Assembly: GCA_023666945.1 (NCBI GenBank)
Contig: JAMPAY010000004.1
Span: forward strand, 62,001-126,000
Reading direction: 5' to 3'
Length of the DNA stretch: 64,000 bases
From: Paludibacter sp.
GTDB lineage: Bacteria > Bacteroidota > Bacteroidia > Bacteroidales > Paludibacteraceae
The translations under genes were made by a program, and so were the position numbers. Below the pieces are notes generated by a model, which worked only from the letters and a program-made list of their open reading frames with translations, did no database searches and had not been told where the DNA came from. Below, one piece after another: positions 4,510 through 49,700 of this stretch (positions are counted from its first letter, which is position 1; the number at the start of each line of letters is the position of its first letter).

Positions 4510-4515
4510 CAGTCG

Positions 4516-4620: not shown

Positions 4621-4643
4621 TTTTATCTACTGTCGTATTTTGC

Positions 4644-6176: not shown

Positions 6177-6215
6177 GTGCGAAAAGCGATAGTTTGGTTG
6201 CGAAAGAGCCGACTG

Positions 6216-30453: not shown

Positions 30454-30484
30454 TTGTTCATTTGGTATAAGTTTTGTATCTTTG
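30454..30484 (+). promoter_or_regulatory. Promoter of the V-type ATPase operon
   Basis: TTG (30454-30456), 20 bases, TATCTTTG (30477-30484), 75 bases before the first subunit gene. It is the only good promoter match I noticed ahead of the nine-gene run. Confidence 0.75.
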
Positions 30485-30558: not shown

Positions 30559-31149
30559 ATGAATACATCACTTCAAGAACTCACCGACAAAATTTATGCA
30601 GAAGGTGTAGAGAAAGGAAAAGCACAGGCTCAGGAGATTGTGGCCGAAGCCGAACGTAAAGCCACAGAAATTATCGCTAAGGCTGAAGCCGAAGCCAAGG
30701 CAAAATTAGCGCAGGCTGAACACAATGCTGCCGAACTCGACAAAAATACACGTTCAGAACTGAAATTGTTTGCATCGCAGGCAGTGAGTGCGCTGAAAAC
30801 GGAAATAGCCGATTTGCTTTCCGATACATTGGCGCAGGATTCTGTTAAGGCAGCCACGGCTGACAGTGCATTTATGCAGAAAATTATTGCTTCTTTGGCA
30901 GAACAATTGGTGAAACAAGGTGAAGTTGTTGTTGAAACCAAGGATGCAGAAGCCTTGAATGCCTATTTTGCACAAAATGCAAAAGGATTGTTGGAAAAGG
31001 GTGTTGTAATCAAAGAAGTTAAGGGTATTAAAACCGAGTTTACCATTGCTCCGAAAAAAGGCGGGTACAAACTGGCTTTTGGCGATAAGGAATTGGTGGA
31101 GTACTTTAAGGAATATCTTCGTCCGCAATTGGTGAATATGTTGTTTTGA
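30559..31149 (+). CDS. ntpE: V-type ATP synthase/ATPase subunit E
   Basis: 196 residues. Peripheral-stalk subunit that holds the catalytic head against rotation. The N-terminal half (about residues 5-75) is a long Ala/Glu/Lys-rich coiled coil (EKGKAQAQEIVAEAERKAT), and the C-terminal half is a small mixed domain ending near FKEYLRPQLV, as expected for subunit E. First gene of the operon. No separate subunit G/H (its coiled-coil partner) was found in the window. Confidence 0.85.
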   Translation: MNTSLQELTDKIYAEGVEKGKAQAQEIVAEAERKATEIIAKAEAEAKAKLAQAEHNAAELDKNTRSELKLFASQAVSALKTEIADLLSDTLAQDSVKAATADSAFMQKIIASLAEQLVKQGEVVVETKDAEALNAYFAQNAKGLLEKGVVIKEVKGIKTEFTIAPKKGGYKLAFGDKELVEYFKEYLRPQLVNMLF

Positions 31150-31196
31150 TAGACGGACAGTAAGGTATCAATCTAACCAAACAACGAAAAAGAACA

Positions 31197-31892
31197 ATGC
31201 TTTACAATTATTTATTGGCAGGATTGGAAGAACTCCGATTGGGGCAACCGCAAAAAATGTCGCAGGAGGAGTTGTTGGCGGAATTGCGCACGCAACTGAC
31301 GCAAAAAGATATGCGTCTGTTGGATTTGTTGCGCATGACCAAAGATTCTCCATTGGTGCAGGAGATGCTCGATGCAAACCCCGATTTAAGAGAAGAATCA
31401 TCGCTATCGGAAGACGATTTGAAAACGCAACTTTACTATCAGTATGGTGCCAAGTGCGGGAATCGCTTTGTTCGCGATTGGTTCTTGTTTAATCTTGATT
31501 TGAATAATGTATTGGCGGCTACGGTGTGCCGACGTCATGGATTTGATGTACAGAAAGCCGTTGTCGGTAATAACGAAGTGGCACAACAGTTGCGCAAAAA
31601 CTTATCGGCCAAAGATTTCGGCTTGGCAGGTATATTGCCCGATTATGCCGATATCATGAAATTGGCGGATATTGATAATCCGCTGGAACGCGAGAAAAAT
31701 ATTGATGCTCTGCGTTGGCAATGGCTTGAAGACCATACGGTATTCTGTAATTTTGAGATAGAGAATGTATTGGCGTATTGGTTGCAGTCGGTTATTTTGC
31801 ATCGTTGGGATACGCTCACGGTTGAGAAAGGAGAAAAAGTATTTCGCGAATTGTTGGCAGAGATGAAAAAAGGAATCAAGTTGGAAATATAA
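31197..31892 (+). CDS. DUF2764 protein of the V-ATPase operon
   Basis: 231 residues, all-helical in appearance. DUF2764 genes lie between E and A in V-ATPase operons of Bacteroidota, and no gene recognisable as subunit C (the funnel that joins rotor and central stalk) is present here. Segments such as FNLDLNNVLAATVCRRHGFD and FEIENVLAYWLQSVIL resemble in pattern the repeated helices of subunit C, so a subunit-C-like role is inferred from position and helix pattern only. Starts 47 bases after ntpE. Confidence 0.75.
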   Translation: MLYNYLLAGLEELRLGQPQKMSQEELLAELRTQLTQKDMRLLDLLRMTKDSPLVQEMLDANPDLREESSLSEDDLKTQLYYQYGAKCGNRFVRDWFLFNLDLNNVLAATVCRRHGFDVQKAVVGNNEVAQQLRKNLSAKDFGLAGILPDYADIMKLADIDNPLEREKNIDALRWQWLEDHTVFCNFEIENVLAYWLQSVILHRWDTLTVEKGEKVFRELLAEMKKGIKLEI

Positions 31893-31907
31893 AAACAGAA
31901 CGATATA

Positions 31908-33665
31908 ATGACAACAGGAAAAGTAAAAGGTATAATCTCCAACCTTGTGACGGTGGGCGTAGATGGACCTGTCTCGCAAAATGAGATTTGCTATATCCAT
32001 TTGGGCGATACCCATCTGATGGCGGAAGTGATAAAGGTTACGGGAGATAATGTGTATGTGCAGGTGTTCGAATCGACCCGCGGACTGAAAGTAGGCAATA
32101 CCGTAGAGTTTACGGGGCACATGCTTGAGGTGGCATTAGGTCCCGGTTTGTTGAGCCGTAACTACGACGGATTGCAGAACGACCTTGATAAACTGACAGG
32201 TGTATTTTTGCAACGTGGCGAATACAACTTCCCGCTGGATGAAGAAAAACAATGGCACTTCAAACCTATTGCCAAGGCAGGCGATGTGGTGACTGCTGCT
32301 GCATGGCTCGGCGAGGTGGATGAAAACCATCAACCGCATAAAATCATGGTGCCTTTTGTTATGGAAGGAAACTATACGGTTAAGTCGGTAATTGCGGAGG
32401 GTGACTACACAATCAACGAAACGATTGCTGTTCTTACCGATGAGGAGGGCAACGACCATAAAGTTACGATGGTGCAGAAGTGGCCTGTAAAACGCCCCAT
32501 TACGGCATACAAATCGAAACCGCGTCCATTCAAATTGTTGGAAACAGGAGTGCGTACGATTGATACTGCCAATCCTATCGTAGAGGGCGGTACGGGTTTT
32601 ATTCCCGGACCTTTCGGAACTGGAAAAACGGTGCTGCAACATGCCATATCGAAGCAGGCGGAAGCCGATATTGTAATTATAGCGGCTTGCGGTGAACGTG
32701 CTAACGAGGTGGTGGAAATTTTCGTGGAATTCCCCGAGTTGGAAGACCCGCATACAGGACGCAAACTGATGGAACGTACCATCATTATTGCCAATACATC
32801 CAACATGCCTGTGGCAAGCCGTGAAGCATCGGTCTATACGGCTATGACCATTGCGGAATACTATCGTTCTATGGGATTGCGCGTATTGCTTATGGCTGAC
32901 TCTACTTCGCGTTGGGCACAAGCCTTGCGTGAGATGTCCAACCGTTTGGAAGAATTGCCGGGTCAGGACGCTTTCCCAATGGACTTATCGGCAACCATCG
33001 GTGCTTTCTACGCACGCGCCGGGTATGTGTATTTGAATAATGATGCAACGGGTAGTATTACCTTTATAGGTACGGTTTCACCTGCCGGCGGTAACCTGAA
33101 AGAACCGGTAACCGAGGGTACTAAAAAAGCCGCTCGTTGTTTCTATGCTTTGGAGCAGAACCGTGCCGACCGTAAACGCTATCCTGCTGTCAATCCGATC
33201 GACTCTTATTCGAAATACCTTGAATATACCGAATTTGAAGAGTATATTACAGAGCGTATCAATGGTGAATGGTTGCAGAAAGTCAATCGTATGAAAACTT
33301 TCCTGCAACGCGGTAAGGAGATACAAGAACAAATCAATATCTTGGGTGACGACGGTGTACCCGTTGATTACCATGAGGCATTCTGGAAATCGGAACTTAT
33401 CGACTTTGTCATACTGCAACAAGATGCGTTCGATAAAATTGATGCCATGTGTCCATTGGAGCGTCAGGAATATATGTTGGATTTGGTAATGGACATATGT
33501 GCGCATGATTACGATTTCGACAACTTCTTGGATGTGAATGAGTATTTTAAGAAACTTATCAACCTCTGCAAGCAGATGAACTACTCGGAATTTCATAGCG
33601 AACAATTTGAAAACTACCACAAGCAATTGGAAGAGTTACTTGCTCAGAAACAGATAAGAGCCTAA
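31908..33665 (+). CDS. ntpA: V-type ATPase catalytic subunit A
   Basis: 585 residues. Carries the catalytic nucleotide site: Walker A GPFGTGKTV at residues 234-242, the A-subunit-specific non-homologous region before it (about 115-190), and the arginine-containing DSTSRWAQALREMSNRLEE. Length and order are normal for bacterial A subunits. Its stop is only 6 bases before a DNA methyltransferase gene instead of the usual subunit B gene. Confidence 0.95.
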   Translation: MTTGKVKGIISNLVTVGVDGPVSQNEICYIHLGDTHLMAEVIKVTGDNVYVQVFESTRGLKVGNTVEFTGHMLEVALGPGLLSRNYDGLQNDLDKLTGVFLQRGEYNFPLDEEKQWHFKPIAKAGDVVTAAAWLGEVDENHQPHKIMVPFVMEGNYTVKSVIAEGDYTINETIAVLTDEEGNDHKVTMVQKWPVKRPITAYKSKPRPFKLLETGVRTIDTANPIVEGGTGFIPGPFGTGKTVLQHAISKQAEADIVIIAACGERANEVVEIFVEFPELEDPHTGRKLMERTIIIANTSNMPVASREASVYTAMTIAEYYRSMGLRVLLMADSTSRWAQALREMSNRLEELPGQDAFPMDLSATIGAFYARAGYVYLNNDATGSITFIGTVSPAGGNLKEPVTEGTKKAARCFYALEQNRADRKRYPAVNPIDSYSKYLEYTEFEEYITERINGEWLQKVNRMKTFLQRGKEIQEQINILGDDGVPVDYHEAFWKSELIDFVILQQDAFDKIDAMCPLERQEYMLDLVMDICAHDYDFDNFLDVNEYFKKLINLCKQMNYSEFHSEQFENYHKQLEELLAQKQIRA

Positions 33666-33671
33666 ATATAT

Positions 33672-35276
33672 ATGCAACAACAATCCCTTTGGGCAAATAT
33701 CGAAACACAAAATGTCAGTATACCTGAAGTCGCAAACCAACTGCAGGTGTCTATAGCAACGATACACAATTGGATAAAGGTTGGGTATCTGCATTCTGTG
33801 TGTGCGAAGACAGTAACCAAAGAGAGTGTAGATATGTTCGTTGCGCAATATATAGGGCAAACTAAGTTAGTATCAAGGGCTAATAAATTGCATAAGATAG
33901 GAGGTGAAACTGATTTTGATATAGCAACCTACCAAGGAACTGATATTTCGGTTGACTATGAATCCACGTTGTCGGATGCTTATCGTAATCAAGAGGGTAT
34001 ATTTTATACACCCGAGCATATTGTGACAGATATGTTAGAAAGTGTTTCTGTTCAGCCGGATGATACATTTTTAGAACCATGTTGTGGTAGTGGAAATTTT
34101 GTAATTGCAGCCATACATAAAGGATTCCTCCCTGAGAATATATATGCTTTTGATACGGATAAAAATGCTGTAGAGATTACTCGGCATCGGATTTATGAAC
34201 TAACAGGGTATGATAGTAAAAATATCGTATGTGCGGATTTTTTACAAATATGTCCATCCATAAATCGTAAGTTCGACTATATATATACAAACCCTCCTTG
34301 GGGAAAGAAACTGCCTAAGCATGTTCGTGACCAATATGCCGATAGTTATAACGTTGGCAATAGTAAAGATACGAGTGCCCTTTTCTTTTTTGCATGTTTG
34401 TCGGTGTTAAAAGAAAATGGAAATATGGGATTATTGTTACCAGAAGCATTTTTTAATGTAGCAGCATTTGAAACAGCGCGCCAAAAGATGCTATCACTAT
34501 CTGTTAAACGCTTGACGGATTATGGAAAGATATTTGGAGGAGTGATGACAAAAGCAATGGGGGTGGAGTTAGATAATACTATTTGTAAAAATGCTTCACA
34601 ATTAGTTACTTGTGAAATAGGGAAAAAAATAACGAAACGCACAGTACATTCATTCTTGACAATGCCTAGAAATATTTTCAATTTGGCATACACGGAACAA
34701 GCAACGAAAATTATTGAGTACATGTATGCGTTACCTCATATTACACTAAAGAATAATGCTCGTTGGGGATTAGGAATTGTAACTGGTAATAATAAAGAAA
34801 AGTGTTTGAGTATTCAACATAAAGGATATGTTCCTGTTTATAGGGGGAAAGATATTACATCAGTAGGTTTATTGTCACCGACATTATTCATTTCAGAAAC
34901 ATTAGAAGGTTGTCAGCAAGTAGCACCGATGTCCTTATATTTAGCCAATGAAAAACTTATATATAGATTCATATCTAATAAATTAGTCTTTTATTGTGAT
35001 AGAGAGCAACGCTATGTGTTAAATAGTGCTAATATGCTTGTATTAAATGAAACATTTCCTTTGACGGGGCAACAGACTGTTGATTTATTGAATAGCAAAT
35101 TTATGAATTGGTTATTTCAAATGCTATTTGGTGCAAATAAGGTATTGCGGAGCGATTTAGAACTATTGCCCATATGTATTGAGTATTTTCAAGAACATAA
35201 GAATTTTAATGAGAATGAGTACTTGAATTTTATTAATATAGAAGAAAGAAATGGAACTTACCGAATTAAAGAATAG
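33672..35276 (+). CDS. N6-adenine DNA methyltransferase with N-terminal HTH (type II-like RM)
   Basis: 534 residues. Residues about 15-40 form a MerR/excisionase-like helix-turn-helix (SIPEVANQLQVSIATIHNW). The methylase core has the SAM-binding FLEPCCGSGNF (133-143) and the catalytic NPPW (207-210) of gamma-class N6-adenine methyltransferases. The C-terminal third (about 360-530) looks like a target-recognition domain of the TaqI/type IIG kind, without a nuclease of its own. It overlaps the following PD-(D/E)XK gene by 26 bases. Both lie inside the V-ATPase operon, are visibly more AT-rich than the subunit genes, and have no evident promoter, so expression from the ATPase promoter is inferred. 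Confidence 0.87.
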   Translation: MQQQSLWANIETQNVSIPEVANQLQVSIATIHNWIKVGYLHSVCAKTVTKESVDMFVAQYIGQTKLVSRANKLHKIGGETDFDIATYQGTDISVDYESTLSDAYRNQEGIFYTPEHIVTDMLESVSVQPDDTFLEPCCGSGNFVIAAIHKGFLPENIYAFDTDKNAVEITRHRIYELTGYDSKNIVCADFLQICPSINRKFDYIYTNPPWGKKLPKHVRDQYADSYNVGNSKDTSALFFFACLSVLKENGNMGLLLPEAFFNVAAFETARQKMLSLSVKRLTDYGKIFGGVMTKAMGVELDNTICKNASQLVTCEIGKKITKRTVHSFLTMPRNIFNLAYTEQATKIIEYMYALPHITLKNNARWGLGIVTGNNKEKCLSIQHKGYVPVYRGKDITSVGLLSPTLFISETLEGCQQVAPMSLYLANEKLIYRFISNKLVFYCDREQRYVLNSANMLVLNETFPLTGQQTVDLLNSKFMNWLFQMLFGANKVLRSDLELLPICIEYFQEHKNFNENEYLNFINIEERNGTYRIKE

Positions 35277-35904
35277 GATACTACAAGCATATAAGGGAAA
35301 TCCTTTTATGAAATGTCAGATAATGAGTAGAATAGAACAGGATAAATCAATCTTCCCGTTTAATGAATATGAATTATTATTGGCAACTTTTTTGGCAAAA
35401 GGGAATATTACTTATGAAACCTATTTGGAAATAAGAGGGGAATATATAGCGAAGAATCCGAATTTATGGATATTCGAAATTTCTGCACCTCGTGGTTTTG
35501 GTGAGTCATTTGCGCAAACTTATTTATTAGGCAAATGTTCAAAATTACAACCTGCATCTAAACAATTAGATAAAAACTATCATGGTCAATACGATTTGTG
35601 GTTAGATGGAATACGTATAGAGGTAAAGGCTTCACGAGTATGTGATAGTAGAAGTGACGAACCTTTGTATAAAAAAGCATTATCATATAATACACAATGT
35701 CCTTTTTTGATGAATTTTCAGCAACTTAAACCACAATGTTGTGATGTATTTGTATGGATGGCAGTATATCGTGATAAGATATCTATATGGGTCATGAACT
35801 CAAAGGAGGTAATGGAACACAAGGATTATTCTAAAGGACAACATCGTGGTAATAATGGAAATGAAGGACAATTGCATATTACAGAAAAAACATTAAATCA
35901 TTAA
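35251..35904 (+). CDS. Putative type II restriction endonuclease (PD-(D/E)XK), probably frameshifted near its end
   Basis: 217 residues as read. Asp115 in QYDLWLDG and Glu124/Lys126 in IRIEVKAS form the PD-(D/E)XK nuclease pattern; SAPRGFGESFAQ before it is like several type II enzymes. Its start overlaps the methyltransferase, so the pair is a classic restriction-modification unit. The frame stops right after an A6 tract (35885-35890). If the tract had seven A, translation would go on for about 20 coding-like residues (NIKSLNKYRLKSDNIALAIK and a few more) to a stop at 35970-35972, 14 bases before ntpB. The enzyme may therefore be truncated, phase-variable, or misread. Recognition site unknown. 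Confidence 0.75.
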   Translation: MELTELKNRILQAYKGNPFMKCQIMSRIEQDKSIFPFNEYELLLATFLAKGNITYETYLEIRGEYIAKNPNLWIFEISAPRGFGESFAQTYLLGKCSKLQPASKQLDKNYHGQYDLWLDGIRIEVKASRVCDSRSDEPLYKKALSYNTQCPFLMNFQQLKPQCCDVFVWMAVYRDKISIWVMNSKEVMEHKDYSKGQHRGNNGNEGQLHITEKTLNH

Positions 35905-35986
35905 ACAAATATAGATTGAAAAGTGATAATATTGCATTAGCAATTAAACGTGCAGCAAGTAGAAGTAAATAAAAAACTACACAAAT

Positions 35987-37303
35987 ATGGCAAAAGCATT
36001 TCAAAAGATTTACACACAAATAACCGCCATCACCAAGGCTACTTGTTCGCTCAAGGCGCAAGGGGTGGGCAACGATGAGTTGGCTACTGTCAACGGTAAG
36101 TTGGCACAGGTGGTGAAAATTATGGGCGATGATGTTACGCTACAGGTGTTTGAGGGTACCGAGGGTATTCCTACCGATGCCGAAGTGGTTTTCTTGGGGA
36201 AAGCCCCCTCGCTGCGTGTCAGCGAGCAATTGGCAGGACGTTTCTTCAATGCCTATGGCGATCCCATTGACGGAGGACCGGAGGTGGAGGGTACGGAAGT
36301 GGAGATAGGTGGACCGTCGGTTAATCCTGTTCGCCGTAAACAACCGTCGGAACTGATTGCCACCGGTATTGCCGGTATAGACCTGAACAATACATTGGTT
36401 TCCGGACAGAAAATACCTTTCTTTGCCGATCCGGATCAGCCCTACAACCAAGTAATGGCGAATGTGGCACTACGTGCCCAAGCCGATAAAATTGTTTTGG
36501 GCGGTATGGGCTTGACCAACGATGACTATCTCTATTTTAAAAATGTATTTAGCAATGCAGGTGTGCTTGATCGTATCGTTTCTTTTGTTAATACTACCGA
36601 GAACCCACCTGTAGAACGTCTGCTTATTCCGGATATGGCACTTACGGCAGCCGAGTATTTTGCCGTAGAGAAAAACGAGAAAGTATTGGTATTGCTTACC
36701 GATATGACGCTCTATGCCGATGCGCTTGCAATCGTGAGCAACCGTATGGATCAGATTCCGTCGAAAGACTCAATGCCCGGTTCGCTTTATTCGGACTTGG
36801 CAAAGATTTATGAGAAAGCAGTACAATTCCCCGCAGGCGGATCGATAACGATTATTGCCGTTACAACTTTGTCAGGCGGTGATATTACACATGCAATCCC
36901 GGATAATACGGGTTATATTACAGAAGGACAGTTGTACTTACGTCGTGATTCGGATATCGGTAAGGTTATTGTAGACCCGTTCCGCTCCTTGTCACGACTG
37001 AAACAATTGGTTGCCGGCAAGAAAACGCGCGAAGATCATCCGCAGGTTATGAATGCTGCCGTTCGTTTGTATGCCGATGCTGCCAATGCAAAAACGAAGT
37101 TAGAGAACGGTTTCGACTTGACCAACTATGATGAACGTTGCTTGTCGTTTGCTAAAGACTATTCCGATCGTATTTTGGCTATAGATGTTAATATCAATAC
37201 TACCGAGATGTTGGATGTGGCATGGCAATTATTTGCTAAACACTTCAAGCCGGAAGAGGTGAACATCAAGCAGACATTGGTTGATAAGTATTGGGGCAAA
37301 TAA
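35987..37303 (+). CDS. ntpB: V-type ATPase regulatory subunit B
   Basis: 438 residues. Non-catalytic partner of A in the A3B3 head. It follows the B-subunit layout (TGIAGIDLNNTLVSGQKIPFF in the place where A has its P-loop) and lacks a Walker A motif, as expected. The tail PEEVNIKQTLVDKYWG is typical. Preceded by the restriction-modification pair and followed after 9 bases by ntpD. Confidence 0.94.
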   Translation: MAKAFQKIYTQITAITKATCSLKAQGVGNDELATVNGKLAQVVKIMGDDVTLQVFEGTEGIPTDAEVVFLGKAPSLRVSEQLAGRFFNAYGDPIDGGPEVEGTEVEIGGPSVNPVRRKQPSELIATGIAGIDLNNTLVSGQKIPFFADPDQPYNQVMANVALRAQADKIVLGGMGLTNDDYLYFKNVFSNAGVLDRIVSFVNTTENPPVERLLIPDMALTAAEYFAVEKNEKVLVLLTDMTLYADALAIVSNRMDQIPSKDSMPGSLYSDLAKIYEKAVQFPAGGSITIIAVTTLSGGDITHAIPDNTGYITEGQLYLRRDSDIGKVIVDPFRSLSRLKQLVAGKKTREDHPQVMNAAVRLYADAANAKTKLENGFDLTNYDERCLSFAKDYSDRILAIDVNINTTEMLDVAWQLFAKHFKPEEVNIKQTLVDKYWGK

Positions 37304-37312
37304 CGGATAAGT

Positions 37313-37930
37313 ATGGCTATTGCATTTCAATATAATAAAACATCGTTGCAAGGCTTGGAGAAGAACCTTAAAATGCGGCAACGTGCATTGCCTACCTTGA
37401 AGAACAAGGAGTCGGCGTTGCGCATGGAGGTGAAAAAGGCTAAAGACGAAATAAAGCGTCTGGATAGCGAGGTGGAGCAACGCATTGCGGCATACGATCG
37501 GATGTTGGCTTTGTGGGGGGAATTCGATACCTCTTTGCTACATGTAGACGATGTGCGCATGAGTGTCCGGAAAATTGCCGGAGTGCGTGTGCCTGTATTG
37601 GACGAAGTGATTTATTCCACCAAAGAGTTCAGTTTGTTTTCGTCTCCTAAATGGTATGCCGATGGCTTTGTGCAACTCAAAGAGTTGGCGCAGGTAGGTA
37701 TAGAGCAGGAGTTTTGCCGTGCCAAACTGCAATTGTTGGAATATGCCCGTAAGAAATCCACACAGAAGGTGAATCTGTTTGAAAAGGTGCAGATTCCCGG
37801 TTATGAGGATGCTATCCGAAAAATCAAACGCTTTATGGAAGACGAGGAGAATCTTTCCAAATCTTCGCAGAAGATAGTGAAGAGCAAACGGGAAGCCGAG
37901 GCACTTGCCGAGGATGGTACTAATTCATAA
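37313..37930 (+). CDS. ntpD: V-type ATPase subunit D (central shaft)
   Basis: 205 residues. Long N- and C-terminal helices (about 15-75 and 140-195) that form the antiparallel coiled-coil rotor shaft; KTSLQGLEKNLKMRQRALP at the start is typical of subunit D. The usual partner, subunit F, is not recognisable in this operon. Nineteen bases separate it from ntpI. Confidence 0.9.
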   Translation: MAIAFQYNKTSLQGLEKNLKMRQRALPTLKNKESALRMEVKKAKDEIKRLDSEVEQRIAAYDRMLALWGEFDTSLLHVDDVRMSVRKIAGVRVPVLDEVIYSTKEFSLFSSPKWYADGFVQLKELAQVGIEQEFCRAKLQLLEYARKKSTQKVNLFEKVQIPGYEDAIRKIKRFMEDEENLSKSSQKIVKSKREAEALAEDGTNS

Positions 37931-37949
37931 CTTATAAAGATGTAAGTGT

Positions 37950-39794
37950 ATGATAACAAAAATGAAAAAATACACCTTTTTGGTCTTTCATCAGGAGTAT
38001 GAGCAGTTTTTGCTCCGATTGAGAGAGGCCGGGGTGGTGCATATAACCGAAAAGGCGGAAGGATTGGCTGACAATCCTATGCTCAATGAGCAGATTGCCT
38101 TTTGTCAGCGTCTGCGTAAGGCACAGACGGCTGTTGCGGCGTATGTTCCGCAAGGAACTGCTTTGCTGGAAGCCCCATGTGATGCTTTGGAAAATGCAGA
38201 ACAGCGATTGACGGAATTCGATGCAATGGTGGCTGAAAAAGCACAATTGGAACAAACATTGTCGGCAGTCAGCAGAGAAGCCCAACGCATGCAGGTGTGG
38301 GGAACTTTCTCCTCGGAGAAATTGGAGCAGTTGCAGCAAAACGGTTGGAATGTGCAGTTCTTTACGTGTGCGGCAAGCAAATATGATGCCGCATGGGAAA
38401 CATTGTACAACGCTTTTGTGGTGGCCGAACAGAGTGGAAATGTATATTTTGCTACGGTTAATCCTACCAACGAGGCTTTTGCATTGGAGGCTGAAGAAGT
38501 AAAACTCAATGAGCACGACTATACGCATCTTCTGACCGATGCGGAGGGTATACAGCACCTATTGGTGGCCAAGCAGGCTAAGTTGGAGGCATGGGCTATT
38601 GCTAATCTGCAATCGCTGCAAAAGGCGGCTGAGCAACAACAACAACGCATAGATTGGACACGGGTGCAACTCAGTACAGATTCGGTGGCTGACCATTCGC
38701 TCAAACTCTTGGAAGGATTCTGTCCGGAGGAATTGTCGGTTGAACTTAATCGTCGGTTGGATGCCGATAAGATTTACTACATAGAAGAAACACCCGACGA
38801 AACCGATGCTACACCGGTCAAGTTGAAGAACAATTTCTTTGCGCGCTTGTTCGAACCCATTACGCGACTCTATTCTCTGCCGAATTATATGGAAATAGAC
38901 CCGACGGCATTCTTCGCACCGTTTTTCATGCTCTTCTTCGGATTGTGTTTGGGAGACGGAGGTTACGGTTTGTTGGTATTGTTGGCAGGCGTTTTCTTAC
39001 TATGGAAGAAACCCTCTATGAAAGATTGGGGATGGTTGGCTGTCTTTATGGGAATTTCCACCATGGTAGTGGGTATTCTGACGGGTATGTTCTTTGGTAT
39101 CGAATTAGAGAAAGTAGCCTTCCTGAAGCCTGTACGTCAGTATTTCATAACGGATAATAACTTTAAGGAAGCATGTCATGGTTATAGTCCGATGATGGTC
39201 TTTGCAATCTGTATCGGTATCTTTCAAATTCTGTTTGCCATGGGCTTCAAGGTGGTAAAGATTACTTTACAGAAGGGCTTCAAATATGCGCTTTACGACT
39301 TGGCTTGGCTCATATTTTTGGTTGACTGTATCGTAATGCTTGTTCCGATGCTCACCGGTAATCCGTTTGTGGCAGGTGTGCAATATACGTTGTATGCTAT
39401 TGCAGGGCTTTGTGCATTGCTCATATTGTTCTATTCCAATCCCGACCGCAAATTCTTGGTATTGAATATCGGTAGCGGTTTGTGGGGTACGTACAATATG
39501 GCATCGGGCTTGTTGGGCGATGTATTGTCCTATATTCGTTTGTTTGCTTTGGGTTTGGCAGGCGGTATATTGGGCAATGTGTTCAACCAATTGGCTTTAC
39601 AGGTAGGTGGCGGATTGCCCGCATGGATAGGTTGGCTGCCTATGGTGCTTATCATGGTGTTCGGACATGGACTCAATTTTGCGTTGGCACTGATTAGTTC
39701 GGTAGTACACCCATTGCGACTCACTTTTGTTGAATTTTATAAAAATGCCGGATTCGAAGGCGGGGGACAGGAATATCGTCCTTTCAAAAAATAA
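37950..39794 (+). CDS. ntpI: V-type ATPase subunit I (membrane stator, a-type)
   Basis: 614 residues. The N-terminal half is a cytoplasmic coiled-coil arm, and the C-terminal half (from about residue 310) has seven or eight membrane helices. It contains the family segments FFGLCLGDGGYGL, ASGLLGDVLSYIRLFALGLA (with the conserved half-channel Arg) and HGLNFALALISSVVHPLRL. It carries ions to and from the K ring and anchors the peripheral stalks. Length is slightly short of the family mean (about 650). Confidence 0.93.
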   Translation: MITKMKKYTFLVFHQEYEQFLLRLREAGVVHITEKAEGLADNPMLNEQIAFCQRLRKAQTAVAAYVPQGTALLEAPCDALENAEQRLTEFDAMVAEKAQLEQTLSAVSREAQRMQVWGTFSSEKLEQLQQNGWNVQFFTCAASKYDAAWETLYNAFVVAEQSGNVYFATVNPTNEAFALEAEEVKLNEHDYTHLLTDAEGIQHLLVAKQAKLEAWAIANLQSLQKAAEQQQQRIDWTRVQLSTDSVADHSLKLLEGFCPEELSVELNRRLDADKIYYIEETPDETDATPVKLKNNFFARLFEPITRLYSLPNYMEIDPTAFFAPFFMLFFGLCLGDGGYGLLVLLAGVFLLWKKPSMKDWGWLAVFMGISTMVVGILTGMFFGIELEKVAFLKPVRQYFITDNNFKEACHGYSPMMVFAICIGIFQILFAMGFKVVKITLQKGFKYALYDLAWLIFLVDCIVMLVPMLTGNPFVAGVQYTLYAIAGLCALLILFYSNPDRKFLVLNIGSGLWGTYNMASGLLGDVLSYIRLFALGLAGGILGNVFNQLALQVGGGLPAWIGWLPMVLIMVFGHGLNFALALISSVVHPLRLTFVEFYKNAGFEGGGQEYRPFKK

Positions 39795-39831
39795 TGCTTA
39801 CGACGGCAATCATTGATAATAAATAACATAA

Positions 39832-40344
<513 letters not shown>

Positions 40345-40370
40345 TCAGAGCAACAGAGGCTATATGTATG

Positions 40371-40405
40371 AGCGAGAGGCTATATGCTTCTCGCTTATTA
40401 TTTTG
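40371..40405 (+). terminator. Terminator of the V-ATPase operon
   Basis: AGCGAGAGGC / GCTTCTCGCT, a 10-bp stem with one G-U pair and a TATAT loop, then TATTATTTT. It begins 27 bases after the ntpK stop. Confidence 0.75.
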
Positions 40406-40628: not shown

Positions 40629-42242
40629 ATGGCAAAGAAAACCACCAAAGAAACTATTTTGAATATCGATGATATTCTGTTCAAATGTCGTGATATACTG
40701 CGCAACGCGCGCAATTCAGGTTCGTTCTTTGAGAAACGCGACCTGATGCTGACTCTTATCTTTCTGCGCTTTATAGGTGAGAAATATGACGAGGGTGTAC
40801 TCGCCTTGCGCAACAAACTGATTGCCGAGGGGCTTAATCCCGACGATCCCGACATTTTTGCCGCGTTCTTCTTGGATGCTTCCTTTGCCGACGGTACCTT
40901 TCCGCTTCCCGAAGAGTCTCGCTGGAGTACACTGATTAACAAACCTGCAGCCGAACTCAATGTGGCACTCGATACCGCCCTCAAACAGATTGCTACCGAT
41001 GTGCCCGAACTGCGTGGCTGCTTCGTAGAAGGCACATTCACCACCCGCAACCTTGCGCCCAACGACATTAAGAAATTGGTGGATGAAATCAATAAGATCT
41101 CACATAAGCAGTTCGGCACACACCGCGACCTGATTGGCTATGTATACGAGTATTTCCTCAAGGAATTTGCGGTCAATGCCACCAAAGAAGAAGGGGAGTT
41201 CTACACGCCACATGATATAGTGAAACTCATAGCCACCTGCATACAGCCTTTCGAGGGGACTATCTACGACCCTTGTTGCGGTTCGGGCGGTATGTTTGTG
41301 CAGAGTACAGATATTATCAAAGCCAAGCAAGGTGACATCAGCCGCGTCAATATCTATGGTCAAGAGAAAGAACCTGCCACCTACCGCCTTGCCAAAATGA
41401 ACCTGGCATTGCGCGGTATCAGCCACAATCTGGGTGCGGAGGCAGAGAACACTTTCGCCAAAGACCTACACAAAGGTTTGTACTTCGACTATATCATGAC
41501 CAACCCACCTTTCAACCTCAAAGGATGGTATAATGATAATTTGGCAACCGACCCGCGCTGGGCGCAGTTTGCTTTACCGCCTGAGAGCAACGCCAATTAT
41601 GCATGGATATTGCATATGCTGAGCCACCTCAAACCGACATCGGGTGTGGCGGGTTTTCTGCTTGCCAACGGCGCGTTGGGCGACAATGATGGTACCGCAC
41701 CGCTCATTCGCCGACAACTATTGGAGCAAGACCGAGTAGAAGCCATCATCGTGCTGCCACGAGAGTTGTTTATCACCACGGATATCAGTGTTACGTTGTG
41801 GATACTCAACATGAACAAGCAAGGCGACAACACGCTGCGTAACCGCACAGGGGAAGTACTGTTTATGGACTTGCGCAGTTGGACAGCACCCGAATACAAC
41901 AACGCAGTGAAGAACCAACAGAAGAAGAAGTTTGCGCTGACGGATACACAGATAGAGCGTGCCGCTGCCATTTACCATACTTGGCAACAAACAGGCATTG
42001 ATGGTACACACTATGCCGAGCCTGAACTATATCGTTCTGTCGGTATCGAAGAGATTGCCCGAAACAACTACAGCCTTGTTCCAAGTCGCTATATAGAGTT
42101 TGTAGATAGAGACGCCCATATTGATTATGATACAACCCTGCGCGAAGCCGCACGATCTGTCTCCGACCTCCTCCACCGCCACGAGGACAATATCCAACAC
42201 ATCAAAGATGCTTTCAATGCTTTAGGATATGAATGCAAATAA
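40629..42242 (+). CDS. hsdM: Type I restriction-modification methyltransferase subunit M
   Basis: 537 residues. The N-terminal helical domain (HsdM_N) is followed by EFYTPHDIVKL at about 190, the SAM-binding DPCCGSGG (214-221) and the catalytic NPPF (292-295) for N6-adenine methylation. It forms M2S with HsdS, and M2R2S with HsdR at 46785. GC-richer and with different codon choice from the three genes that follow. It overlaps the next frame by 14 bases. Confidence 0.94.
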   Translation: MAKKTTKETILNIDDILFKCRDILRNARNSGSFFEKRDLMLTLIFLRFIGEKYDEGVLALRNKLIAEGLNPDDPDIFAAFFLDASFADGTFPLPEESRWSTLINKPAAELNVALDTALKQIATDVPELRGCFVEGTFTTRNLAPNDIKKLVDEINKISHKQFGTHRDLIGYVYEYFLKEFAVNATKEEGEFYTPHDIVKLIATCIQPFEGTIYDPCCGSGGMFVQSTDIIKAKQGDISRVNIYGQEKEPATYRLAKMNLALRGISHNLGAEAENTFAKDLHKGLYFDYIMTNPPFNLKGWYNDNLATDPRWAQFALPPESNANYAWILHMLSHLKPTSGVAGFLLANGALGDNDGTAPLIRRQLLEQDRVEAIIVLPRELFITTDISVTLWILNMNKQGDNTLRNRTGEVLFMDLRSWTAPEYNNAVKNQQKKKFALTDTQIERAAAIYHTWQQTGIDGTHYAEPELYRSVGIEEIARNNYSLVPSRYIEFVDRDAHIDYDTTLREAARSVSDLLHRHEDNIQHIKDAFNALGYECK

Positions 42243-43386
42243 AACAATAGCCAAAATGAGAACAGAAAAACAAATAGTTAGCGATAACTCACAATTATAT
42301 AATCGCATTGTAGCATTATTAGAACAGTCTCGTAAGACTGTCAAAACAGCAGTCAATCTATCTATGGTATATACCTATTTTGAGATAGGGCGTATGATTG
42401 TAGAGAATGAGCAGAATGGGAAAGAGCGTGCTGAGTATGGGAAGGAAACACTCAAAACCCTTTCCGTGAAACTTACGGAGAAATTCGGGAAGGGGTTCTC
42501 TGCCGATAATTTGCAAAATATGCGTAATTTCTATCGTATTTATACAACGAAACAGATTTCCGAGAAGGTGTCTCGTAAATCTTCTCGGAATGCCCAGTCT
42601 GCACCTACAAAATCTTTAGAAAAACATGCAACTATTGACAACAATTCTACGATTTCGTGCGCATCACAAGCCGAAAAAGTATTTACATTAAGTTGGTCGC
42701 ACTATTTGTTTCTAATGCGGATTAGCAACCCAGAGGAACGGAATTTTTATGAGATAGAAGCACATACGAACGATTGGTCGCTTTCGGAACTGAAACGGCA
42801 ATTCAATTCGGGGCTATACGAACGGTTGGCATTGAGTAAGAACAAGGAAGAAGTAATTGCGTTGAGCAGACAAGGGCAGATTGTAGAAAAGGCTGCCGAT
42901 ATTGTGAAAGACCCATATATTTTAGAGTTTCTTGGTTTACCCGAATTGCCAAGATATTCTGAAACCGACCTTGAAAACAAGATAATAGACCACTTGCAAA
43001 CTTTCTTGCTTGAATTAGGTAAGGGTTTCACATTTGTTGAACGGCAAGCAAGATTCACATACGATGAAGAACATTTTAGGGTTGACCTCGTATTCTACAA
43101 TCGACTTCTACGATGCTTTGTGCTTTTTGACCTCAAAATAGGAGAATTGAAACATCAAGACATTGGACAAATGCAAATGTATGTCAACTACTACGACCGC
43201 AAAGTGAAATTGGAAGATGAAAATCCTACAATTGGTATTCTGCTCTGTAAAGACAAAAAGCAGTCTATTGTGGAAATGACGCTGCCACTTGACAACACCC
43301 AGATATTTGCGAGCAAGTATATGGAAGTACTACCCAGCAAAGAAATGCTACAAGAATTATTAAAAGACAAAGAGATAATGGGATAA
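42229..43386 (+). CDS. DUF1016 / YhcG-family PD-(D/E)XK nuclease
   Basis: 385 residues if the ATG at 42229 is used; an in-frame ATG at 42256 (after the hsdM stop) is equally possible. N-terminal DUF1016_N helical domain (about 20-190, with YFEIGRMIVENEQ) and a C-terminal nuclease domain with Asp286 in RVDLVFY and Asp301-x-Lys303 in LFDLKIGEL, a PD-(D/E)XK variant. A Ser/Lys-rich linker at about 110-145 (KSSRNAQSAPTK) is unusual. YhcG genes often sit in type I RM loci; their role is not established but nuclease or recombination functions are proposed. AT-rich relative to hsdM. Confidence 0.88.
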   Translation: MNANKTIAKMRTEKQIVSDNSQLYNRIVALLEQSRKTVKTAVNLSMVYTYFEIGRMIVENEQNGKERAEYGKETLKTLSVKLTEKFGKGFSADNLQNMRNFYRIYTTKQISEKVSRKSSRNAQSAPTKSLEKHATIDNNSTISCASQAEKVFTLSWSHYLFLMRISNPEERNFYEIEAHTNDWSLSELKRQFNSGLYERLALSKNKEEVIALSRQGQIVEKAADIVKDPYILEFLGLPELPRYSETDLENKIIDHLQTFLLELGKGFTFVERQARFTYDEEHFRVDLVFYNRLLRCFVLFDLKIGELKHQDIGQMQMYVNYYDRKVKLEDENPTIGILLCKDKKQSIVEMTLPLDNTQIFASKYMEVLPSKEMLQELLKDKEIMG

Positions 43387-43439
43387 ATAATCCGTCAAAC
43401 AGAACTCATAAAAGCACAATTAGATGATAAAGAATAAGT

Positions 43440-44591
43440 ATGGAAAAGAAAGGTTGTGAAGATATGCTTTCAGAATGTACAGATAGTCATATGCAGGACA
43501 TGTGCAGGTCTTGTAATGTGCCAATCGTTAGACTGGGAGATTACATAACCCAAAGGCGTGAAAAAAATAAAGATTATCATGTACCCATTCGAGGGGTTAC
43601 GCGAGATGGATTTATTGCACCAAAACAAGATGGTGACTTGTCAATGTATAATGTATTTTATCGGTATGATTTTGTATTTAACCCTGCAAGAATGGAGATA
43701 AACTCTATTGCTCTCAATACTGAATGGGACAAAGCCATCTGTTCTTCTTTATATGAAGTGTTCTATGTTAATGATACCAGTGTTTTACTACCACAATATC
43801 TGAACTTGTATCTGAAAAGAGACGAATTTGCAAGATATTGTAAATTTGATGCTATTGGATCTGCAAGAAATTATTACAGAGTATATAATATAGCAGAAGT
43901 CTGCATCCCTCTCCCCTCCATAGAGGTGCAGCGGGAGTTGGTGGCAGTGTATGAAGGATTGAAGCATTTGGCAGAAACCAACGAAGCCATGCTCACCCCT
44001 CTCGCCCAAGCCTGCGAAGCCTTTATCGTGGACTGTAAAAAACAATACCCAACACACAAATTAGGAGAGTATATAGAGGAATGTGATGAGCGCAATACAA
44101 GTGGGGAAATTACACTATCACAAGGCATATCTAACCTAAAATATTTCCAAACACCAAAACAAGTAGCAGAGAATTCTAAATCTGATAAAATAGTTCGCAA
44201 AGGACAATTCGCATACAACCGTGCTACAACTCGTAATGGAGAGAAAATTTCTATTGCATATAGAGAAGAAGAAGATTGTACTGTTTCTTCTGCATATGGT
44301 GTATTCTACATAACGAATGAAAATAATTTGTTGCCACAATACTTAATGTTATTCTTTAAGCGTGCCGAGTTTGACCGTTTTGCAAGGTGGCGCTCAGAAG
44401 GAAGTGCGCATGAGTTCTTTACATTTGATATGATGTACAGTGTTCAAATACCACTTCCTCCAATCACAGTGCAGCAAAAAATAGTAGAGTTGTATCAGTG
44501 TTACGAGGAGTGCAAACGCATCGCCACAGAGGCAAGAGAACAACTAAAAACCATATGCCCAGCATTGGTGCAGAAGGTCACTAATTCATAA
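43440..44591 (+). CDS. hsdS: Type I restriction specificity subunit S
   Basis: 383 residues with two target-recognition domains (about 30-150 and 205-325), each followed by a similar conserved helix region: IPLPSIEVQRELVAVY and IPLPPITVQQKIVELY. Each recognition domain reads half of a bipartite DNA target. The first 25 residues contain several cysteines (CTDSHMQDMCRSC) before RLGDYI and may be non-native or a late start. No second hsdS cassette or inverted repeat is seen near by, so target switching by inversion is not indicated here. Confidence 0.9.
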   Translation: MEKKGCEDMLSECTDSHMQDMCRSCNVPIVRLGDYITQRREKNKDYHVPIRGVTRDGFIAPKQDGDLSMYNVFYRYDFVFNPARMEINSIALNTEWDKAICSSLYEVFYVNDTSVLLPQYLNLYLKRDEFARYCKFDAIGSARNYYRVYNIAEVCIPLPSIEVQRELVAVYEGLKHLAETNEAMLTPLAQACEAFIVDCKKQYPTHKLGEYIEECDERNTSGEITLSQGISNLKYFQTPKQVAENSKSDKIVRKGQFAYNRATTRNGEKISIAYREEEDCTVSSAYGVFYITNENNLLPQYLMLFFKRAEFDRFARWRSEGSAHEFFTFDMMYSVQIPLPPITVQQKIVELYQCYEECKRIATEAREQLKTICPALVQKVTNS

Positions 44592-44667
44592 TTGATGTGG
44601 TATGCATAACGAACAAAATATTTGGATTGTATATTTATTGATATTTAACTTGTAGGAGATAAAAAAT

Positions 44668-46674
44668 ATGGTAGATAATGGCAGGAAAATGATTGCGTCA
44701 TTGGCTTTATTTAGACAATTATATAGAAACGAAAGTACGGACACACTTGTCCTTTTAAGCGATTTTATAAAGTTAATTATTAAGAATCACAATTTGTATA
44801 TCTTTACCGCTTCAGACATTAGGAATCGACTCTACACAGAATATAATTTTTCTATTCCTGACACCGTTGTTGAATCTGCATTAAAAAAGTTCTGCAACAA
44901 ACAATTTGGGAATTACCGTATCAAAGAAAATGTTGTTTTTCCAAGCGAAAATACTTGCACTATCGAAGACAGCAATAATGAAATTATCAATAAACTAATC
45001 ACCTATATTGAAGATAGAAAAAATATCAATCTATCTTCTTCTGAAAAGGAAGAGATAGTACAATCTTTTTGTGAATTCATTATAGAGGACACTACACAAA
45101 TAAAATATGCCGACTATATAAGTGCGTTTTTAATTGAATGTCAAAATGATAATAATATCAGAGAACAACTTAAATCTATTAAAGAAGGGGTTATATTGTA
45201 TACAGGTATAAAATACAATGATAATATCTCAGAAGTAGGAAGTTGGAAAAACAATTTCACTATTTACCTTGAACAGGAAATGCTTTTCCATTTTGTTGGA
45301 TACAACGGAGACCTATATAAACGATTATTTGATGATTTTATTGAGTTAGTACGTGAGGTAAACAGAAAAGCAAAAACGGAAATCATCAAATTAAGGTACT
45401 TTCCAGAAGTAGAATCTAATATTAACAAATTCTTTTCTATTGCACAAAGAATTACCGATGGAAAAGAAACATTAGATCCATCGAATACGGCTATGGTCGA
45501 AATTACAAATGGGTGTGCAGATGGAACAGATGTTTTAACCAAGAAATCTCATTTTTACGATTTATTAAACAAGTCGTTGATTCAAGTATCTGATGAGATA
45601 TACATCAGTGATAAAGAAAACATCCCGTATAATATTTATACGAAAGACAAGGAAAATGAACTCATTCAAAATATACCTGATTGTAGCATTGAGTCTATCC
45701 AACAGAGCCTAACTTTTGTCAATTACATTAATATATGCAGAAAAAGTAAATGTACTAGTTTTGAACGTTCAAAATGTATATTATTAACAGGCAATAGTAC
45801 TACATTAAAAGTTGATTCCTCTCTCAAAGAAAATGGATATGTACCTTATACAACAACCCTTGATTTTATTACAAATAGAATATGGCGAAAACTGAATAAA
45901 GGGTTCGGGGATAATAAATACCCCAAATCATTTGATGTGATTACAAAAGCACAAATTGTTTTAGCATCTCATATTGCAGGCTCTGTTTCAAAAGAATTTG
46001 AAAAAATAAAACAAGATTTTGCAAATGGAAGAATTACAAAAGAGCTAGCCGCACAAACCTTAGTTAGTCTAAAAGAGCAAGTTTTGAAACCAGAAGATAT
46101 AAATTCTGAAAATACAAACCATGCTTTGATAACTATTAGTGACGCAGAAAGAGGTAAAAGAGAGTTGGAGAATCAACGCTATGAATTAAAATTAGCACGC
46201 GAAGAAAATGAAGTTATAAAAAAAGAAAAAAGACGAGAGGAAGAGAAAAACAAATTGACCGCGGATGCTTTATTCGCTACGAATAGAGAATTATTGAATG
46301 AACGCATTAACAGATTACAAATAGAACTCAATAAAAAAGAAAAAGTAGATAAAAAATGTAAGATATGGAATAAAATAATACTCATAATAAACATAGTATT
46401 GCCAATTATTTTAATCGCAATTATATGTATACTCATACGCTATTTTTCATGGGATATTATGGAGCAATGGACATATATTTTGTCCTTATTAGTTTGGGTA
46501 TTACAGTATGTGTTTTGTGTAATTATAGGGCACAGTTTCAACCCTGAAGTTGCACTTGCCAAAATAAATAAATATATCAAAGATCGATTATATCAAAAAT
46601 ACGAAGTCAAGGAAGCGGAAATAGATAGATTAAAGACTCTAACATCAGTGGAATCTACAAATAATATCATTTGA
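44668..46674 (+). CDS. Uncharacterised protein: winged-helix-like, PIN-like and coiled-coil regions with two C-terminal membrane helices
   Basis: 668 residues, not recognised as a named family. From the N-terminus: a helical region of winged-helix type (about 20-95, with FTASDIRNRLYTEYNFSIP); a middle region (about 195-410) that begins with a strand NFTIYLEQEMLF and ends CILLTGNSTTLK..YTTTLDFITNRIW, the order seen in PIN-like RNase folds though with Glu where Asp is usual; a charged coiled coil (about 490-560); and two membrane helices (about 567-592 and 602-621), then a basic tail. Very AT-rich. Its place between hsdS and hsdR suggests a defence accessory or effector; this is inference. Confidence 0.75.
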   Translation: MVDNGRKMIASLALFRQLYRNESTDTLVLLSDFIKLIIKNHNLYIFTASDIRNRLYTEYNFSIPDTVVESALKKFCNKQFGNYRIKENVVFPSENTCTIEDSNNEIINKLITYIEDRKNINLSSSEKEEIVQSFCEFIIEDTTQIKYADYISAFLIECQNDNNIREQLKSIKEGVILYTGIKYNDNISEVGSWKNNFTIYLEQEMLFHFVGYNGDLYKRLFDDFIELVREVNRKAKTEIIKLRYFPEVESNINKFFSIAQRITDGKETLDPSNTAMVEITNGCADGTDVLTKKSHFYDLLNKSLIQVSDEIYISDKENIPYNIYTKDKENELIQNIPDCSIESIQQSLTFVNYINICRKSKCTSFERSKCILLTGNSTTLKVDSSLKENGYVPYTTTLDFITNRIWRKLNKGFGDNKYPKSFDVITKAQIVLASHIAGSVSKEFEKIKQDFANGRITKELAAQTLVSLKEQVLKPEDINSENTNHALITISDAERGKRELENQRYELKLAREENEVIKKEKRREEEKNKLTADALFATNRELLNERINRLQIELNKKEKVDKKCKIWNKIILIINIVLPIILIAIICILIRYFSWDIMEQWTYILSLLVWVLQYVFCVIIGHSFNPEVALAKINKYIKDRLYQKYEVKEAEIDRLKTLTSVESTNNII

Positions 46675-46784
46675 TATTTTAATGATGATTCACCATTTTA
46701 TAAACTTCCTTTCCCTCGTTTTAGCATGTAGTTACTACCTTATGCGACCTACACCAATAAAAGTAACAAAATAAATAATAACAT

Positions 46785-49700
46785 ATGGCAAATTTAACAT
46801 CATACAACGGTCGCTACTGCGAGCAGGATTTTGAGGATGCGTTGATTCAACTCTTTGCGCAGGCAGGTTGGACATACACTTTCGGGGAGGATATTGCGCG
46901 TGAAAAGGGTACGGATGTGCTTATCACTGCCGATTTGCGGGCGTATCTGATGCGTGAATACAACGACCGTCTGACCGTAGAAGAAATAGACGAAATAATC
47001 AGCAAAATCAGCCTGATAGGTGCAGAAAGTGAGTTCGCCACTATGCATCGCATTTACATGCTGTTGGTGAATGGGTGGCAATACATACGGCAGAACGGTG
47101 AACCCATAACACTGCATCTTATTCATTTCGAGAAGCACAAGCGCAACACTTTTCGTGTGGTCAATCAAATGACCATCGACTATGTTAACAACGGTCAGCG
47201 CAAGAACCGCCGTCCCGATCTGCTGCTTTATGTGAATGGGTTGCCGCTGTGCATCATCGAACTGAAAAACCCCTCCAAAGCCAATGCGACTATTGCCGAT
47301 GCCTACGAACAGATACATACACGCTATTGGCGCGATATACCGCATCTGCTGCATTACTGCCCGCTGGCAATGATTAGCGATGGCGTCAAGACACGACTGG
47401 GGACAGTGGTCGCCCCCTATGAACATTTCTATGCATGGCGGCGGGTGGAAAACGACAGTCCCATCTCTACTATGGGCTTCGATGAGGTGGCTACTATGGT
47501 ACAAGGGGTATTCACCCCGACGCGTTTCTTGGAGATATTCCGCGACTACATCTATTTTCAAGACAGTGAGTACGATTTTGAGGAGAAAGAAATTGTGTGT
47601 CGCTATCCGCAATTCTTCGCTACGCGTCTGCTGCGTGAGAGTGTACTGCGGTCGGTGGCTGACCATAGCGGCAAAGGCGGTACCTATTTCGGGGCTACAG
47701 GATGCGGCAAGACCTTCACTATGGCTTTTCTCGCTCGCCAGTTGTCGGTTAGGTGTGCCAAACAACTCGGCTCGCCCACCATCGTGATGATAGTAGATAG
47801 AGACGATCTGCAAAAGCAAGGTGCCAAACTGTTTACCAAGTCTACCGAGTTTTTGGGATTGGGCGAAGTGCGGAAGATTGTTTCGCGCCGCGACCTGCGA
47901 CAGGAGTTGAGCCTGCGTCCTTCGGGAGGTTTCTATATCTGCACCATACAAAAGTTTTGCGACCGCAAAGAAGATATCATCGGTGTCATCTCCACGCGGA
48001 GCAACATCATCTGTTTTTCCGACGAAGCCCACCGCACACAGATAGAGAAAAGCAAGCAGATACGCTTCGACCGTGATGCCGATGAGAATATGCGTGCTTT
48101 GGTGTCCAAACCTTATGCCAAAGTGCTGCACGAAGCCTTCCCTAATGCCACTTTTGTAGGTTTCACGGGTACACCTATTGCGGAAACTTATCAGACTTTT
48201 GGCGATGAAGTGGATCGCTACACCATGGATCAGGCGGTGGCAGACGGTATCACTGTACCTATTAAGTACCACCCGCGTATAGCCAAAGTACTATTGGACG
48301 AAACCAAAGTGCGTGCCATAGAAGCCTACTATCGACGCTGTGCCGAAGAAGCCGCTACAGAAGAAGATATACAAGCCAGCAAAAAGGCAATGAGCAGCAT
48401 GGAGATTATCTTGGGCGAACCTGAACGCTTGCAACGATTGGCTGCTGACATTCATCACCATTTCACATCAGCCCTTGACGCCAACCCCACGCGTAAGCAG
48501 AAAGCCATGATTGTATGTGCCAATCGGCAAATAGCCTACAATCTGCTCTTGCAATTTCACGCACAATTCCCCGAGTGGTTTGAAGACCGCTTAAGCCCCG
48601 ATGACAACTTGCTGACGCAAGAGCAACTGAAAGAACTGCGTCCTATGCCCACCATCGCCATGGTGGCTACCGTGGGTAAGAACGATCCGACCGACATGTA
48701 CAATTATCTGGGCGGCGTAGGCAACAGCGAACGCAACGACACTTTAGACGCTTGCTTCAAGCAGGTCAATTCCAATTTCCGCATAGTGATAGTAGTGGAT
48801 ATGTGGATTACGGGGTTCGATGTGCCATGCCTGACCTACCTCTACAACGACAAACCCTTGCAGAAACATACCCTCATACAAACTATCAGTAGGGTTAATC
48901 GCAAGGATACAGGCAAAGAATATGGTTTAATTATCGATTATATCGGTATTCGCAATAATATGCTGCGGGCTATGAAAACTTACGGCGGTGGAGGTACTAC
49001 GCTGGCACCCACGGTGGACGATATAGAACAGGCGTATATGCTCTTTAAGGAGCAACTGGAAATCATAAAACGGTTGTTTCATGGCTATGACCTGACGCCT
49101 TTTCTCAACCCGCATACCGATGGTGTGGAGCGATATAGGCAACTCTCCCAAGCCGCTGAGTTTGTATTTGCCAATACGCAACAACTCAATCTGTCGGAAG
49201 AAGGCAAAAAAGCGCGTATGGTGCTCTTTAAGACCTATTTCCTTAAGATGGTACAGAGGATGCGTGCTGCGTACGATATTTGTCAGCCGTCGGATGTGTT
49301 GTCGGATATAGAAGTGTCGTTGGCACAATGCTTTATGGCTATTGCAGGTTTTGTACGCAAAATGAGTGGTACAAGCGAGCACGATACCGAGAGCATGAAT
49401 AGGCAGGTGCGGCAGATGGTGGAAGAAGCCTTGCGGTACAACAATGTAGTGAGCATACTTGATGGTGCAGATGAAGAAGATATATTCGATGCAAAATTCG
49501 AAGAAATTTTGAGCAATGTGCCTCTGCCTGCCACCAAGTTGGAACTATTGGTCAAAATGCTCAAAAAGCGCATAGCGGAGTATGGGCGTACTAATGCACT
49601 TGCAGCCAAAAAGTACCAAGAAATGCTGGAAGATACTATCAAACAATACCACGAGCGGAAGAAACATCTCGATTTGGAAGAAGCAGGCGAAACGCAAGAA

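Follow-up and report, generated by a model that had tools for sequence, protein, structure and literature searches.

A predicted type II restriction-modification (R-M) pair was found between the genes for subunits A and B of a V-type ATPase (V-ATPase) in a 64,000-nucleotide stretch of a Paludibacter sp. genome (contig JAMPAY010000004.1; the whole stretch is hereafter called the window). The pair consists of M, a putative N6-adenine DNA methyltransferase, and R, a putative PD-(D/E)XK restriction endonuclease. Both pump genes are intact and all of the genes lie on the same strand, which confirmed the arrangement described in a first-pass annotation made from the letters alone. We consider it quite probable that this is an acquired pair in an insert-tolerant A-B junction, made from the transcripts of the operon.

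Identification of M and R

M matched the PADLOC model PDLC03356 (MTase_II) with 558 bits over profile positions 3-532 of 545, and R matched PDLC03414 (REase_II) with 316 bits over positions 8-219 of 244. The pair is like these two models in that both proteins match, and unlike them in that R here has no tail in its main frame. M also exceeded the Pfam cut-offs for N6_Mtase and TaqI_C, and its N207-P208-P209-W210 motif was invariant among 28 aligned M proteins. No Pfam or NCBIfam match was obtained for R. Its D115, E124, and K126 were invariant among 30 aligned sequences, and the best alignments of its predicted structure were with PD-(D/E)XK restriction and homing enzymes. Used alone, Foldseek returned nothing below E 0.001 for the R model, and the sequence search for relatives of R with solved structures returned just chance-level arabinose isomerases (E 0.12). 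Taken together, the profile matches, the invariant residues, and the model alignments bore out the adenine methyltransferase and PD-(D/E)XK nuclease classes of the first-pass annotation, and M and R are predicted to form a type II R-M pair. The candidate N-terminal helix-turn-helix (HTH) of M remained below the Pfam cut-offs (MerR, E 0.011; HTH_17, E 0.02); its model suggested, with low to moderate confidence, a winged-helix-like pattern, with a predicted local distance difference test (pLDDT) score of 63-77 for the block at residues 11-60.

The R gene is not complete in one frame as assembled. Its catalytic core is whole, and the tail conserved in the family is found in the -1 frame after a run of A (Table 1), which indicates that R as assembled is frameshifted. 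The displaced tail is stop-free and resembles intact relatives. In a first alignment, the stretch beyond the QLHI motif was present in 27 of 28 relatives, the 28th (L039) being read from a wrong start; in a second, all 29 relatives had the C-terminal tail, one of them ending a few residues early. The two comparisons share eight loci. The coordinates agreed with the spacers noted earlier, namely 6 bp on the left and, on the right, 82 bp from the main R stop at 35904 to the B start at 35987, or 14 bp from 35972. The latter distance had been given for the case that the endonuclease frame continues to 35972; the distance stood, while the frame ending there proved to be the displaced tail and not a continuation of the main frame.

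Either the frameshift is recent, or slippage bypasses it, or it is an assembly error. The window M and the 217-aa R are each the head of a protein cluster that is listed for seven contigs, the longest of 398,843 bases; these counts are for whole clusters (two member sequences for R and three for M), in which not all need carry the short form. Because that contig is longer than the 146,041-base contig of the window, the short form of R is probably no single assembly slip. Our inclination is that M is active and that R is weakened or inactive.

Spread of the pair and the A-B junction in the genus

The GC contents of M (0.345) and R (0.320) were below those of seven V-ATPase operon genes (0.43-0.47), as were the values at third codon positions (0.275 and 0.230 vs 0.36-0.54), confirming that the pair is more AT-rich than its neighbours, as had been remarked. 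Full-length R occurred in 1 of 178 genomes of the genus, the window's own (G000). Three other genus genomes gave matches that were remote or partial, at 52%, 45%, and, over a short stretch only, 32%, and no A or B gene was present within the fetched 7-8 kb around the remote pairs of G118 and G143. At the order level, R matches were obtained in 4 of 393 genomes, the window's own included. A scan of GTDB species genomes yielded 35 R loci in many phyla, 31 of them at 58-69% identity; M adjoins R at 33 of the 35, and the 26-bp overlap of the two genes in the window is kept in most relatives. R had no match in phage, plasmid, and viral-contig collections, and no vehicle was identified in them. These results suggested that the pair was likely acquired from outside and inserted.

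To describe the junction, A was located in 153 of the 178 genus genomes (144 usable) and B in 149 (143 usable). The two were paired on one strand of one contig in 122 genomes; their spacings run from alignment to alignment and are off by some bases. The junction was shorter than 100 bp in 84 of the 122 and at least 100 bp in 38. Only one of these long junctions, that of the window's genome, held an R-M pair. Twenty contained an M6-type peptidase gene (split into two frames in G144), of which the G003 copy matched Peptidase_M6 and TIGR03296 and the G035 copy TIGR03296; an extra lipoprotein-like gene accompanied it in four (G036, G105, G148, and G178). A short lipoprotein-like gene was found in six, the G195 copy matching TIGR04134 (radical SAM-associated putative lipoprotein), and in G121 such a gene was followed by an open reading frame resembling the M6 tail. 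The others held a different lipoprotein-like gene (two; G137 and G162), a 10.5-kb stretch of other genes (one; G008), or no convincing gene (eight). The M6-type gene product is secreted-looking and approximately 760-810 aa long (e.g. L092:9733-12018), and the gene overlaps the A stop codon (ATGA) in several genomes.

A and B were not linked in 13 further genomes, and in 11 of these they lie apart (G106, G108, G020, G187, G023, G019, G176, G024, G013, G104, and G099); G145, with A and then a piece of B, and G091, in which contig ends seem to cut through an M6 insert, were excluded from this count. For nine of the first ten of the 11 genomes, in the order given, the fetched stretch showed no subunit D after B; the G024 contig ends inside B. 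On the minus strand of L095 (G029), A and B form one 1017-aa open frame from which the A end is missing, an apparent fusion or assembly error.

The first-pass annotation had suggested a search for the empty site in relatives. Empty junctions were found in most of the linked genus genomes and in all seven B-carrying relatives from elsewhere in the order, where A and B adjoin with at most 38 bp between them or overlap; the co-directional neighbours of the window pair are therefore adjacent in relatives. In a FastTree tree built from the codons of A and B in a selected subset, G000 stood beside G011 (support 0.574), and the junction of this inferred sister is also empty (6 bp). The species with M6 genes and those with A and B apart were in other parts of the tree than G000, indicating that the junction opened more than once. 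The R-M pair is one lineage's case among these repeated openings. We dropped the idea of R-M as the unique opener of the junction, as M6 genes, lipoprotein-like genes, and separation of A and B also occur there.

The contexts of related pairs were compared at 31 loci, comprising the window and 30 of the 35 R loci; L063, L067, L068, L069, and L073 were excluded for contig ends or partial genes. The upstream neighbour was co-directional at 21 loci, the downstream neighbour at 19, and both at 14. At L048, the pair lies between a trmB-like gene and rimP with wider gaps (100 and 256 bp). At L070, from a Bacteroidetes metagenome-assembled genome (MAG), a distant pair (positions 3993-6712; 29% identity for M and 41% for R) starts 18 bp behind the F1 gene atpD (TIGR01039, 775 bits), and a perfect 38-bp copy of the atpD 3' end follows R, which points to a target duplication. 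No atpC was recognised among the downstream open frames listed, which were those of at least 40 codons. A long target duplication was clear at L070 alone; none like it was found at the other 30 context loci, the window included. A weak, degenerate copy of the R 3' end upstream of M at L046 (4214-4252) is perhaps the remnant of an earlier or tandem copy. It seems improbable to us that the M-R family as a whole is a minimal mobile element which lands behind stop codons in housekeeping operons, including those of rotary ATPase catalytic subunits, by copying the target 3' end, keeping the host genes intact and giving the pair immediate expression; the window would then be an old or differently repaired case.

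Locus layout, expression, and alternative explanations

The window belongs to a draft Bacteroidales genome of 28 contigs and 2.08 Mb. Among the 120 matches listed for its A protein, those with names are mostly 'Paludibacteraceae bacterium' MAGs and one 'Bacteroidales bacterium', at 87-89% identity; the G011 and G106 counterparts are 89% identical to it. The V-ATPase operon (30559-40344, single strand) has the order E-like, DUF2764, A, [M, R], B, D, I, and K, with clear family assignments for A, B, D, and DUF2764, and matches below the curated cut-offs for E, I, and K.

Table 1 Positions of features in and around the V-ATPase operon of the window
Feature	Position	Strand	Basis or remark
Candidate Bacteroidetes-type promoter (TTG...TATCTTTG)	30454..30484	+	TAnnTTTG scan; weak; approximately 75 bp upstream of first V-ATPase gene; exact TTTG-spacer-TAnnTTTG absent
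V-ATPase subunit E-like gene	30559..31149	+	Pfam vATP-synt_E, E 0.0014, below cut-off; operon position
DUF2764 gene of V-ATPase operon	31197..31892	+	Pfam DUF2764, E 5.7e-53
V-ATPase subunit A (catalytic), intact	31908..33665	+	NCBIfam NF003220, 771 bits
Left junction, 6 bp	33666..33671	+	Sequence
M, predicted N6-adenine DNA methyltransferase	33672..35276	+	Pfam, PADLOC, alignment, model
Segments of M: N-terminal HTH-like, ~14-59; NPPW motif, 207-210; TaqI-like specificity domain, 388-501
R, predicted PD-(D/E)XK restriction endonuclease, main frame, 217 aa	35251..35904	+	PADLOC, alignment, model
Run of A where main R frame and conserved-tail frame diverge	35885..35890	+	Sequence, alignments
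Conserved C-terminal tail of R family, -1 frame relative to main R frame	35889..35972	+	Alignments
Right junction before B, 14 bp	35973..35986	+	Sequence
V-ATPase subunit B, intact	35987..37303	+	NCBIfam NF002555, 711 bits
V-ATPase subunit D	37313..37930	+	NCBIfam NF002565, 223 bits
V-ATPase subunit I	37950..39794	+	NCBIfam NF004429, 251 bits, below its cut-off
V-ATPase subunit K	39895..40344	+	NCBIfam NF005124, 99 bits, below its cut-off
Terminator-like hairpin 3' of V-ATPase operon	40368..40398	+	13-pair stem

Directly behind the operon is a type I R-M locus (40629-50102) with HsdM, a YhcG-like PDDEXK gene, a specificity subunit, HsdR, and a 668-aa gene of 30% GC that had no PADLOC match. 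Elsewhere in the window, a UvrD-like helicase gene (12703-15513, minus strand, 32% GC) matched the PADLOC RTasHel and GajB models and is perhaps another acquired defence gene.

Co-transcription of the pair with the pump genes is plausible from the sequence, given the tight spacing, the candidate promoter before the first gene, and the absence of a plus-strand TAnnTTTG element, the Bacteroidetes -7 consensus, between 32203 and 39313. No plus-strand terminator-like site was detected between 31479 and 38080. In the mechanism that we propose, the pair would have landed just behind the A stop codon, leaving A and B undamaged; M and R would be made from the operon transcripts, R by coupling through the overlap. 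M would methylate adenine in a short site; unmethylated copies would be cut by R, provided that the shortened protein folds or that the shift is bypassed. Through its N-terminal HTH, M may act as a repressor of its own transcription in the manner of Ecl18kI-type systems; no clear operator was found in 29 stretches upstream of M, where the best spaced word occurred in five and ten shuffles reached three to four. The junction would have been taken because it tolerates inserts, and not because the pump needs the pair.

Several results weigh against an acquired pair made from operon transcripts in this junction. Nesting with both co-directional neighbours within 100 bp was a minority among the context loci, at 5 of 31 (4 of 30 without the window): V-ATPase A/B in the window, tatD/ABC transporter at L051, phosphotransferase/1028-aa gene at L053, purH/purD at L065, and plsY/shikimate kinase at L072. 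No direct repeat of at least 12 bp was found at the window junctions, the best score being 9 and shuffles reaching up to 11; the TAAA shared by the two junctions is uninformative, with 30 occurrences in this 2.4-kb stretch. A scan of the 30-41 kb region for the two-part Bacteroidetes promoter in its exact form gave no match, not even before the V-ATPase operon, and the sigma-70 scan was at chance level (31 found vs 28.5 +/- 4.6 in shuffles), so that the earlier statement that no promoter or terminator is visible for the pair was borne out weakly. R, frameshifted as assembled, may not be a working restriction enzyme, and palindrome avoidance gave no clear recognition site (445,883 bases of G000, from stretches L179-L198 and the window, vs 400,000 of G011). 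Several words were scarcer in G000 than in G011, among them AGCT and AGCGCT, with observed/expected ratios of 0.10 and 0.21 in G000 vs 0.50 and 0.83 in G011, and CTAG, GATC, and GGCC were low in both genomes; as G000 carries other R-M genes, the scarce palindromes were not assigned to M or R.

The frameshift bears on the possibility that R has been inactivated and that M is kept on its own, as a solitary adenine methyltransferase with perhaps a regulatory role, a reading which we regard as a serious contender, somewhat short of an even chance. The out-of-frame family tail and the cluster listings on seven contigs agree with it. On the other hand, the whole core and the stop-free tail like that of intact relatives indicate that the shift is recent or bypassed, sequencing errors and slippage are frequent at homopolymer runs such as this one, and the cluster counts may include sequences that are not short. 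The same frameshift would weaken killing, and this tells against a different proposal, in which the nesting keeps the pair because its loss would injure the pump, while post-segregational killing by the R-M pair in turn preserves the operon. The first-pass annotation had likewise supposed that loss of the pair would risk harming the operon, which could stabilise the pair. The spacers of 6 and 14-82 bp fit such nesting, and for Helicobacter PMC10273834 states that PabI-type R-M pairs impose maintenance of the operon. The junction, however, changes freely in the genus, being mostly empty, often otherwise filled, and in 11 genomes split, which argues for a tolerated place behind a stop codon and not for a hostage site. 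The supposition was therefore not upheld, and we judge the proposal unlikely. Least probable by far is that misassembly brought into the operon a pair that really lies elsewhere. The marked GC change at both ends of the pair and the draft state of the genome would suit a mis-join, whereas A and B are intact on either side with short spacers, no long junction repeat makes one likely, and the M and R clusters are listed on other contigs too. Acquisition of the pair into an insert-tolerant junction is the explanation that we prefer.

Comparison with known systems

In PMC10273834, R-M pairs inserted in metabolic operons, together with the stabilisation idea, are described for the PabI family in Helicobacter and Campylobacter. 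The window pair is alike in being a two-gene R-M unit in an unrelated operon with patchy spread. The differences are that PabI-family R is a restriction glycosylase of the HALF PIPE fold and window R a predicted PD-(D/E)XK enzyme, that the operons concern glutamate and histidine metabolism instead of a V-ATPase, and that a 4-bp duplication is noted for one insertion, whereas none can be claimed in the window. Insertion of R-M genes with a long target duplication was reported by Nobusato et al. 2000, as cited in PMC3031569; L070, with its copy of the atpD end, is like this case, and the window is not. This atpD case is a second rotary-ATPase example and could serve to work out how simple R-M pairs insert.

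The R-M genes of SsuDAT1I in Streptococcus suis, which lie between purH and purD, were reportedly gained by horizontal transfer, and different foreign genes are said to be found at this locus. The purH-[M-R]-purD arrangement at L065 presumably represents the same address; SsuDAT1I itself is of another R-M family and host than the window pair. The methyltransferase of Ecl18kI is a cytosine enzyme, and the window M, a predicted adenine enzyme with a TaqI-like domain, is unlike that type. PMC3874152 describes Ecl18kI-type methyltransferases as repressing their own gene via an N-terminal HTH; the HTH-like segment of M may correspond to it, and on the side of differences no clear operator was found upstream of M.

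Our literature search on R-M systems with V-type ATPases or V-ATPase operons found no such arrangement, in a coverage mostly outside subscription journals. The first-pass statement that no described case was known held for V-ATPase operons in the literature searched, but R-M pairs in metabolic operons are in print (PMC10273834). The junction between A and B, which adjoin in the relatives examined at the order level, was opened more than once within a single genus: by a defence pair, by a gene for a secreted peptidase, by lipoprotein-like genes, and by separation of A and B. The genus thereby offers a natural experiment on the importance of A-B adjacency for making the pump. With respect to known systems, the V-ATPase A-B junction is a new address for the known habit of R-M genes to insert in operons.
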